Of a stretch of 64,000 nt of DNA, positions 45,669 through 50,390 are shown piece by piece. Source of the stretch: Paramecium tetraurelia (taxonomy: Eukaryota > Ciliophora > Oligohymenophorea > Peniculida > Parameciidae); contig NW_001799133.1 in NCBI RefSeq assembly GCF_000165425.1, positions 391,406 to 455,405 of the forward strand, written 5' to 3'. The translations under genes were made by a program, and so were the position numbers. Below the pieces are notes generated by a model that was not told the DNA's origin, searched no databases, and saw only the letters and a program-made list of their open reading frames with translations. Positions within the stretch are counted from its first letter, which is position 1, and the number at the start of each line of letters is the position of its first letter.

Positions 45669-48326
45669 ATGGAGTTAAAATCGAAAAAAAGTAATTCCAA
45701 AATAGCCAACACTGAAAGAACAAGCGGTAAAAACACTAAACAGGACTTGTTGGAATACTTCAAAAAAGAGCGAAATACTCTGACCTAAGTAACTAATAGT
45801 ATTAAAACGTAACTTCAATAAAATCGATCCATCGATAATTTGAATAGTCAGAAGAGTGAGCGATTCAAAACTCTCAATGCCCAATATCAGTAAATTCCCC
45901 TGTCTTTAGATCAGAGGCTACACACAGATGAAGGAAATAACATTAAACGATAGCTTATAAAGGGAAAGAATCTGTCCCTTGCCACAATTCAGATGGAATC
46001 AAAGTAGTAGAAGATAAATAGCAAACAAAGCAAAGTGAATCAAACACCATAAAGCGCTTATAAGATGCCAAAATCTACAGTAGATCAATATTTTCAAGAC
46101 ATGCAAATAAAAAGTGCAAAGCAATATAAAAATCATCCACAGATAGAATATCAGCAATATTTCAATATTAGGCCTAGCAAAACCTCATTGTTGCAAGAGT
46201 CTCAAGCATTAAAATAATCAATTGAACATATCTTGTCGAAAAATAAGGGAGATTCTAAAAAACATGTTAAGAGAGTTGACTCAACTGAGCCTCGTTCCAT
46301 CAATCAATCTACTCAATATAAGGGGGAATCCAGCAAAAAGATTAACAGAGCTGAAGAATCAAACCATTATGACCCCAAGAAGTAATTAAAAATTGTACTA
46401 TTTTATAAGAATTAAAAGTAATTTGTTTTTAATATTTAGATATAATTATTTATTTGATTACCAAAACAAAACAACTGATAACTTATATAATTACTTGATC
46501 CAACAAATAGGTTGCATCGAAAAATCATTTGCTAAGCAAGGTGGAGGCACAGGATCAACTGAGGAAGATCAAATTTAATAAGGTACATTCTATAATACTA
46601 GTATTAGAAATCAACAAAATATGTCAATTTTATTGTGTCTAAAAGAATGTCCCATATGATTATTATCTAAGTCTCCCAAATTTATCATTGCATGTGTTTT
46701 AAGGAATTACTCTACAATTATAACCATTAATTGCTTAGTCTGCTTCAGGCAAAAGAGTAAATTTGAAAGACTTTGCACTTGTAAAATGCATAGGAGTAGG
46801 TGGATTTTCGAGAGTTTATTTAGTGAGAAAGAGAGATAACGGGAAATTTTATGCACTTAAATTGATTGATAAAAGCTTTATCATGGAAAATCAAAAGGAA
46901 GTTATTGTTTAGAATGAAAGAGACATAATGGTTAAAATGGATAATTAATTCATCACTCCATTACATTTTGCATTTGAAACGAAATATTATATTGCCTTTG
47001 TTCTTGATTATTGTGCAGGGGGAGAATTATTCTTTCATTTAAGAAAACTTAAAAGATTGAGTGAGTAAGATGCCAAATATTACTTTGCTGAAATATGTAT
47101 AGGAATGGCATATCTACATGCTTAAAATATTGTTTATCGAGACATTAAACCTGAGAACATCTTATTGGATTTGCAAGGACATCTCTTACTTAGTGATTTT
47201 GGACTAAGCAAACCCAACATGTCTCCAGAAGATTTTGCTTATTCTTTTTGTGGATCCCCTGAATATATGGCTCCGGAGATGCTTCTAAAGAGCGGTCACA
47301 ACTATTTAGTTGATTGTTATTGCTTAGGAGCATTGCTCTATGAATTAGTTACAGGATTACCTCCATTCTATTCTCATAATACTCAAGAAATTTACAATTC
47401 AATCTTGACGGAACAAGTATTGTTTCCTCCCTATGTGTAAATATCGGACTTGTTAAAAGACTTGATTTATCAATTGCTTGAGAAGGACCCCTCATAGAGA
47501 ATAGGGTAGACCTAAGGAGTCATTGAAATCCTAACTCATCCTTGGTTTGCTGATGCGGATTTTGAAGCCATAGTTAATAAATCAATCAAGCCCCCATATA
47601 AACCAGAGCCCTTATAATATAACTTCGATGAGGAAGAGTTCAATAAAGGAGATGTAGAATTTAGAAAATAATACAATGCAAACTTGCAAAAAGAATATGT
47701 AACATTGCAATATTAATTTAGTATAATGATAATTTTGGTAATTACATCCTTCAAAACTTTTATTATTCCAGAGAAGATCTACCAGAATCACCAGAACACA
47801 AGTCAAAAAGATCAAATGTTATTGATTTAACTCAACTTCATTTTGAAGGTGTGCCTGAAGAATAGAGTTCTCCAGAAAGAGTTGGAGTATTCAATCTAAT
47901 TATTCAATAGGTTTATACAAATGATTTCAGAAGAGTATAAAAGTATTAAGGAAAATCAGATATTCAGGATTTTTTAAAAAGAAGTGATCAAAATAACAAT
48001 AAATCATCTTCTTTGATTTAATCTTCAAAAATAAGTCATGCTTATTCCAAAACTATGCAACAATAGCATTCGCATACTGATTTACAAGTAGTTCTTTTAT
48101 TAATCAAATCTAGACTCTTAGATTGATGATCGATTCTACTAAAATGTAACTCAGTTCTGAGAGAACACCCACTTTGCCTGAAAATTAAAGTTCAAAGTTC
48201 TAAAACAATCGAATTAAGACTGAACAAATCTCTTAGATGTTATATCCTAAAACAACTACCAATTATTAGTTTAATAAATAAACCAATCTATAGAAATTGT
48301 TTGGATCTGATAAAAGAAAAAAATGA
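45669..48326 (+). CDS. AGC-type protein kinase with long N-terminal extension and hydrophobic-motif tail
   Basis: 855 aa after introns of 22, 19, 23 and 26 nt; length closes exactly. Residues 1-250 are basic and disordered. A short globular segment around VPYDYYLSLPNLSLHVFQG, possibly PH-like, precedes the kinase domain: IGVGGFSRVYLVRKRDN, YALKLIDKS, CAGGELFFHLRK, VYRDIKPENILL, SDFGLSK, and the T-loop CGSPEYMAPEMLLK, then LVDCYCLGALLYELVTG. The C-tail reads NFDEEEFNKGDVEFRK and FGNYILQNFYYSRED, like the turn and hydrophobic motifs of AGC kinases, followed by 170 Ser/Gln-rich residues. AGC kinases act in PDK1-type signalling. The 19-nt intron at about 46584 links N-terminus and kinase and deserves proof. 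Confidence 0.88.
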
Positions 48327-48387: not shown

Positions 48388-50390
48388 ATGATATAAGTTC
48401 TTGATCAGAATGATAGAGAAATCTACAAATATCGATTGTTACAAGGAGAAAATAGGTTTGGAAGTGATCCAAAACAATGTAAATACCTAATCCGAAATGT
48501 TCAAGGTGTTCTATTCTCTGTCGTAATATCTTCATTCTAGAAATTTAGGCTTTACTTAATAACGATGTGTACTTCACCCATTTCAGTAATACAGATTAAG
48601 TTTTGAAAGAATCAACCTTGAAATAAGATTAAAAAGTAGAGATTCCCAAAAACTTCATAATTGAGATGGTCCCACTCAGAAATTATTATTTTTAAAACTT
48701 TAAGTTCAAATTACTTAACTCCATCGAAACAATTTAGTAAAATATCTAATGCACATTACAAACAACTTAAATCTTAGAGGATTTTAGTGGTACAATGGCA
48801 TTAGATGATATCCTGGATATTCCGTAATAAGTTGCCCCTAAGGTTTAAACCACTTAATAAATATCCACCACTTAAGTACTTAGTTCCTAAGACCCAGTCG
48901 TAACTTCTACTTTAATTTTAGATGAGGTAGATTAATCGACATTATCAAGCTTAAATGAATTAATTTCATAGTATTCAGGAATAAATTCTATGGTGAAATC
49001 AAATCACCTTTCCACTAATGACGCATAAACCTAAACAGAAATCATAGAGGCAGAACCTTAATTACAGAAAACTCGAACCTTATTTAGTGATCTTTTTAAA
49101 ACTAAAAGACAAACTTCTTAAATCTCATAGTAGATTTATTAACATCCTTAATAGCCTACACTTATTGACTAAACAATGATTGATTCTCAAATGTAAAGTA
49201 TTGATCAAAATTAAAATCATGACTCCTAATTTGTGAACAAGAAAGCCGAAATTAAAGGTACTATGATTGACGATGATTTAAATAAAGCATTTTCTTCATC
49301 ACAAAATAAAAGTGTTGATAAGTTAGAATAATCTTAAATCAAACGTTTTAATAGTATTCAATCAGATAATGTATAAATAACATAGTCTAAATAAGAAAAT
49401 AATAATTCAAAAATTGAACTAAATGATCTATTTGGTAGTTTACCTGAAATGCCAAATTAATAAATTTAACAACAATAAACAATTAAAAAGTTTCCCTAAC
49501 CTAAGTCAAACATTTTAAATACTCGATATGATGATTCTTAAGATGATAAAAATAATTAATAATAAGATTAAACTCCTATTAAAGTTAAAAATTAAAAATT
49601 AAAATAAACATCTTCCATTGAGAAATAAGGAAAAAAGCAAACCAAAGGGGATTTGAAGAAAGTGGCATTGCTCAAAAAAATAACAGATGAAATTTCTGAT
49701 GAAACCTCAGAAGAATCGAATTAATCAAAATAGTAGATAAGACATACTAATTCTATTGAATTGCCTGCTACTAAAATATTTTAGTAAAATGATTCTAAAA
49801 ATAATAAAAAGTTAGGAAATAAAAAAAACCAATAAAAGAAAGTTAAAAATGTTCAATTAATAGCCTTTAGTGGATTTTAGCCCAATGAAATACCACAAGC
49901 AAATGATTTAAAAAAACTAGGTTTAGAAATAGTGAACAATCAATTAGAGAAATTTGATTTGTTAGTTTTGAACAATCCTCCTAAAAGAACATTCAAATTT
50001 CTAAGTGCCTTGCTGCTTGGGGCTGAAATAGTAACACTGGATTGGTTGACTAACTCACTTAAATAAGGAAAGGCTATTTAAAAGTTCCATGATTATGTTC
50101 CCAATAGTGATGAATTTTAAAACTCTTTCGGATTAAGCATTGAACAAATTGTTCAAAGCAGGGATACTTATTTTGAAACTAACAAGAATCTAGTAAAAAT
50201 CTTTGATGGGAAATATCATGTTAAAGCAGATGTAACACCATCAAAAGCTGAAATTGAGTATCTTATAAAATTAGGAGGTGGAGAGGTACTACAGAAACCT
50301 GGGAGAAATGTCATAACCATATGTGATACCAAAGTAGGCAATTCAATGCCATCAGATTTCATATTAGATGGATGCATGTTTCAATCATGA
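48388..50390 (+). CDS. BRCT-pair protein with possible N-terminal FHA region, DNA-damage-mediator-like
   Basis: 655 aa, with one candidate 35-nt intron. The C-terminus has two BRCT units: NVQLIAFSGFQPNEIPQAND with LEIVNNQLEKFDLLVLNN and GAEIVTLDWLTNSLKQGKAI, then YHVKADVTPSKAEIEYLIKL followed by GGGEVL and NVITICDTK. The N-terminus, with GENRFGSDPKQCKYLIRN, resembles the start of an FHA fold but lacks the usual SRxH, so this is only a possibility. The middle is disordered and dense in SQ and TQ, though Gln is abundant everywhere here. Order FHA, linker, tandem BRCT is that of MDC1, which reads phosphorylated H2A.X (family knowledge). Confidence 0.82.

Follow-up and report, generated by a model that had tools for sequence, protein, structure and literature searches.

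In the 64,000-nucleotide stretch of Paramecium tetraurelia DNA analysed here (contig NW_001799133.1, positions 391,406 to 455,405 of the forward strand; hereafter the window), the plus-strand gene at 48388..50390 is read as encoding a gamma-H2A-binding scaffold of the MDC1/Mdb1 type, with a probability of roughly 0.7. The gene opens with an ATG at 48388 and closes with a TGA stop at 50388-50390, and its product is 658 amino acids long; an earlier note on this DNA had given it the same ends, which hold once one intron is removed. The genome searched comprises 69 Mb in 231 contigs, with TAA and TAG read as Gln and introns of ~25 nt, features that suit a macronuclear genome of the Paramecium aurelia type, and intron lengths in Paramecium lie between 23 and 28 bp (PMC11334263). 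Eight GT-AG choices of 18-44 nt leave the frame of the gene open; the predicted 26-nt intron at 48523..48548 (GTAATA...TTTAG) is favoured because the two other genome copies, on contigs C222 (71% identical) and C22 (57% identical), are each interrupted between the same two codons by a 25-nt GTAAAT...TAG intron. Exon 1 (48388..48522, 45 codons) holds the first half of an FHA-like domain and is aligned in 3/3 copies, and exon 2 (48549..50390) constitutes 613 codons and the stop.

The second half of the FHA-like domain, whose assignment is weak, takes up residues 46-101 (48549..48716). It is followed by a Q/S/N-rich linker of residues 102-475 (48717..49838), probably disordered to judge by its composition, and by a C-terminal tandem BRCT of residues 476-658 (49839..50387). 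Between the window copy and the C222 copy, the ratio of nonsynonymous to synonymous substitution (dN/dS) is lowest in residues 1-101 (0.06), the most constrained part of the protein, higher in the BRCT region (0.135), and highest in the linker (0.27). In the comparison with the C22 copy, synonymous sites are at or near saturation.

The C-terminal tandem BRCT proposed in the earlier note was confirmed by two kinds of search. In Pfam, RTT107_BRCT_5 (3.2e-9) and BRCT (7.7e-5) both exceeded their cut-offs, BRCT_2 matched the second unit below its cut-off (9.3e-5), and all BRCT models were confined to the last 190 residues. A single-sequence search of the PDB returned Mdb1 (6.9e-8), PTIP (1.4e-7, with an alignment spanning both BRCT units), Brc1 (1.4e-5), and MDC1 (5.9e-5 and weaker), and these four were the only matches under E 1e-4 for the single protein and for a profile of the three copies alike. 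After them, the profile matched viral fusion proteins (best 6.2e-4), taken as chance, while BRCA1 and 53BP1 appeared at E 0.36 or more; the best BRCA1 score was 13.5 bits against 28.7-37.3 for Mdb1, PTIP, Brc1, and MDC1.

Other BRCT genes are also present in the genome. A more diverged paralog on the minus strand of C161:51000-56000 has an FHA-like N-terminus and a C-terminal BRCT region, with MDC1 as its best PDB match (4.1e-4). On the minus strand of C213:28707-31838, a BRCT pair lies close behind the N-terminal region, and the best PDB match is PTIP (3e-5). A third gene, in C190:283000-288500 (1882-2791), encodes a RING finger and, after it, a tandem BRCT with BRCA1 as the best PDB match (6.3e-14), which makes it a candidate BRCA1 orthologue; an intron is assumed in it because the RING and BRCT parts lie in different frames. 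With the C161, C213, and BRCA1-like C190 genes included, an alignment of six rows gave a second AlphaFold model of the BRCT region with a mean predicted local distance difference test (pLDDT) of 61.5 and values of 68-87 per ten-residue block over model residues 1-80. Its ten best Foldseek matches were all tandem BRCTs of Brc1, PTIP, Mdb1, or MDC1, with BRCA1 eleventh. At this end of the protein, the fold prediction proposed in the earlier note thus yielded a model of moderate confidence, whose best matches are readers of gamma-H2A or gamma-H2AX.

The phosphopeptide pocket was aligned with human MDC1, whose sequence was checked against PDB 2azm. The counterparts of T1898, G1899, R1932, R1933, K1936, and E2063 are S486, G487, K524, R525, K528, and D648, all six identical in 3/3 copies, and S486, K524, and D648 are conservative substitutions relative to MDC1. 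S486 (49869..49871) corresponds to the phosphate contact T1898, and the stretch K524-R525-T-F-K528 (49983..49997) carries the counterparts of R1932, R1933, and K1936 (roles in PMC4013092). D648 (50355..50357) stands for E2063, the partner of R1933 (role in PMC11014961). The feature that marks the gamma-H2AX pocket, T1898, R1933, and K1936 of MDC1, is therefore present as S486, R525, and K528 in each copy, and the Ser/Thr and Lys whose lack the earlier note had named as fatal to a mediator are both there. The Ser, Arg, and Lys of the pocket are kept in the C161 paralog, whose BRCT1 shares 30% identity with that of the window protein; in the C213 gene the Lys is replaced by Asn.

A tail that could bear a fitting mark is found on the core H2A. 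The genome yielded five intact core H2A genes, on contigs C167, C52, C79, C184, and C6 (E 3.6e-75 or lower), all of which terminate in KEDPSQAV-stop. The six H2A.Z-like genes found end in ...PKE and are without an SQ tail. The count leaves aside an H2A-like relic at C29:179700-180300, a broken stretch with two in-frame TGA codons that still has a TSQAV-like tail at its end. The major H2A would thus carry the SQ tail itself, as in yeasts. In SQAV, the last residue is hydrophobic and Ala takes the place of Glu, the residue at this position in the H2A tail of most organisms; H2Av of Drosophila ends in SQAY. As judged from these sequences, the SQAV tail is a plausible cognate mark of the BRCT pair.

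Conserved motifs also occur in the linker. Six complete [ST]Q sites are intact in 3/3 copies, against a mean of 1.5 in column shuffles, where six or more were reached in 3/2000 (2/2000 when shuffling within 10 columns). Three of them, T118, T147, and T153, form a TQx-phi cluster (48765..48881) that is intact in all copies (shuffle mean 0.11; three reached in 1/2000, and in 0/2000 within 10 columns), and S158, T206, and S258 are the further conserved sites. The strict TQxF form occurs just once, as TQSF in the C22 copy, and no SDTD motif is found in any of the three copies. Invertebrate MDC1 is described as having TQxF repeats only and plant BCP4 as having TQx-phi (PMC11014961).

Among known relatives, Schizosaccharomyces pombe Mdb1 is similar in length (624 against 658 amino acids) and has a C-terminal gamma-H2A-binding tandem BRCT whose pocket, of S392, K434, and two Arg, matches that of the window protein; two conserved phospho-binding residues are required for its binding of the gamma-H2A peptide (PMC4013092). 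Its N-terminal ~90 residues are beta-rich and were suspected by the authors to be FHA-like, although undetectable as such by sequence, much as in the window protein (PMC4013092). Unlike Mdb1, the window family has three TQx-phi motifs and three genome copies, and the H2A of its genome ends in SQAV. Human MDC1 likewise has its tandem BRCT at the C-terminus, the T1898, R1932, R1933, K1936, and E2063 counterparts, and TQ motifs in the linker; it differs from the window protein in that the latter is 658 amino acids long, lacks SDTD, and has an N-terminus without recognisable FHA signature residues. An N-terminal FHA domain is reported in all 119 metazoan MDC1 proteins (PMC11014961). Drosophila MU2 shares TQ sites and a C-terminal tandem BRCT, which in MU2 binds gamma-H2Av, and has an N-terminal FHA where the window protein has its FHA-like start (PMC2672170); a domain search detects the FHA in MU2 and not in the window protein. 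Arabidopsis BCP3/BCP4 are alike in their C-terminal gamma-H2A.X-binding tandem BRCT and, for BCP4, in TQx-phi, and unlike in the Asn at the MDC1 K1936 position and in that no FHA domain was found in them (PMC11014961).

Several results weigh against an MDC1/Mdb1-type scaffold. A first AlphaFold model of the BRCT region, from a three-row alignment, was of no use (pLDDT 39), and the second models BRCT2 poorly, with 33-55 per block past model residue 110. The template modelling (TM) scores of the top ten Foldseek matches are just 0.42-0.48 by query length, and VIA-align gave tied Z values of ~9.5-10.5 for SLF1, BARD1, TopBP1, BRCA1, and MDC1; since so many lie within about one unit, the fold comparison backs a tandem BRCT more firmly than any sub-family. 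The Ser/Arg/Lys triad also occurs in other tandem BRCTs that bind phosphoserine, such as that of BRCA1, so the pocket alone is no proof of specificity for the H2A tail. SQAV does not fit the plant definition of the tail as SQ, E/D, and a hydrophobic residue (PMC11014961), and a search for the H2A kinase gave two FAT matches with no kinase identified.

The remaining points of this kind concern the other two parts of the protein, where the earlier note fared less well. It had described many SQ/TQ sites; the 14 present, all within the linker, are at chance for a Q-rich composition (linker Gln 16%), with 11.4-11.6 expected from composition shuffles (p 0.22-0.25), and the other two copies have 12 (p 0.20) and 11 (p 0.07). 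Ser or Thr preceding Gln was retained as Ser or Thr in all copies at 8/14 positions, against 26/58 for other Ser and Thr (Fisher p 0.55). What stands of that description is the six sites, three TQx-phi included, conserved above chance. The FHA-like start that it had proposed escaped detection: no Pfam family passed its cut-off (best DUF1132 at 0.011 in 1/3 copies; ART at 0.1) and no PDB chain matched at E 10. A phosphothreonine-binding FHA domain has its signature in GR and SRxH positions. In the alignment to the FHA profile, the window protein has GS at the GR position and no SRxH, and the domain, if it has an FHA fold, would be without the usual phosphothreonine-binding residues.

Some profile evidence for an FHA fold was nonetheless obtained. 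Aligned profile to profile with 20 FHA domains found elsewhere in the genome, the N-terminal domain gave a collinear but weak match, scoring 15.9, a value equalled or beaten in 1/60 and in 6/200 column shuffles; when the C161 paralog was added, the score rose to 21.5 and was reached in 0/200. The C161 N-terminus alone did as well against the FHA profile in 0/200 shuffles and has a sub-threshold match (E 0.021) to PF16697, which we take to be an FHA-like family. The N-terminal region of the C213 gene gained no support, 31/200 shuffles being as good. Elsewhere in the genome, four loci (L050, L051, L057, and L058) encode FHA-RING proteins that are presumably CHFR-like. Altogether, the MDC1-like mediator of the earlier note is upheld in its C-terminal half, by the BRCT pair, the pocket, and the fitting H2A tail, with an SQ/TQ richness weaker than it stated and an FHA start that is unproven.

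The protein might instead be a BRCA1- or TopBP1-like adaptor, with a tandem BRCT that reads a phosphoserine motif internal to some other protein of repair or replication. This is unlikely, because gamma-H2A readers head both the sequence and the Foldseek results, a free-ended SQAV tail is present on 5/5 of the intact core H2A genes found, and the genome has its separate BRCA1-like RING-BRCT gene. BRCA1 and BARD1 carry a RING at the N-terminus, and identity with either was rejected: Pfam found no RING match in the window protein, and the different gene on C190 fits. A role as a PTIP- or Brc1-like fork protein, which would read gamma-H2A where replication forks stall in vegetatively growing cells and would do nothing particular at programmed breaks, could draw on the presence of PTIP and Brc1 among the top PDB sequence and Foldseek matches. 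PTIP, Brc1, and Rtt107 have six BRCT domains each; only the C-terminal pair was found by Pfam in the window protein, and both TQx-phi motifs and an FHA or FHA-like N-terminus are traits of MDC1 and Mdb1, making this role distinctly improbable.

The union of an FHA-like start with a BRCT pair also recalls NBS1, a subunit of the MRN complex, and the genome has Mre11 domain matches in two places, with no Nbs1_C match at E 1. The NBS1 C-terminus binds MRE11; the window protein ends at its BRCT pair (last 183 residues), and ~370 residues part that pair from the FHA-like start. In NBS1 the two adjoin at the N-terminus (PMC8079451). By layout, the C213 gene is another NBS1 lead, its BRCT pair being nearer the N-terminal region, which itself does not match the FHA profile above chance. 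An NBS1-like subunit is therefore a very remote prospect for the window gene.

An MDC1/Mdb1-type scaffold built on the observed elements, namely, the gene structure, the tandem BRCT, the conserved pocket, the SQ tails of the core H2A genes, and the conserved TQx-phi motifs, would act as follows. The H2A serine in the C-terminal ...SQAV would be phosphorylated beside a DNA double-strand break, and the tandem BRCT would bind the phosphorylated tail, with the phosphate probably held by S486 and K528 and the end of the tail touched by R525, braced by D648. Further factors would be recruited by the rest of the protein: by the TQx-phi trio, by the remaining conserved TQ/SQ sites, and by the FHA-like domain, the last probably through protein contact and not phosphothreonine binding. 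The nuclear site and timing of this action we can only infer.

Paramecium makes tens of thousands of programmed breaks in macronuclear development. In Tetrahymena, gamma-H2AX occurs in developing macronuclei and is mostly missing without LIA5, a factor required for the excision of internal eliminated sequences (PMC3775806), so a role of the window family in development, or at programmed breaks, is by analogy plausible but unproven. Tetrahymena gamma-H2AX and Pdd1 elimination foci were not co-localised, and repair was suggested to occur outside those foci (PMC3775806); the link between the mark and the elimination body is therefore not simple, a further point on the negative side. A bolder, tentative, and rather unlikely extension is that the family reads gamma-H2A (pSQAV) at programmed breaks and tips the outcome of each break towards either end joining or the formation of a chromosome end, with the three copies and at least one older paralog (C161) possibly splitting vegetative, meiotic, and developmental duties. 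MU2 would offer a parallel: in Drosophila, its mutation led after irradiation to more recovered chromosomes with a lost end and a new telomere (PMC2672170).

The genes flanking the window gene bear on its copies, the C222 and C22 genes being taken as products of whole-genome duplication. The upstream neighbour (46529-48016), which by eye looks protein-kinase-like, is also matched beside both of them, and the downstream neighbour (51680) has a match beside the C222 copy and none in the DNA retrieved around the C22 copy.

Readers of the MDC1 type are known from animals and fission yeast. By sequence, they have been seen in amoebozoa (PMC4013092), and functional counterparts were found in plants (PMC11014961); no such reader in a ciliate was named among the matches listed in a search of the open-access literature. 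A ciliate reader with a matching H2A tail, if true, would place this pairing of reader and mark in a further major eukaryotic branch and would give a direct handle on whether chromatin signalling of DNA damage helps, or is bypassed, at tens of thousands of programmed breaks. The window family looks like a ciliate member of the MDC1/Mdb1-like proteins and may allow one to ask how deliberate cuts are read by the cell that makes them in its own genome.
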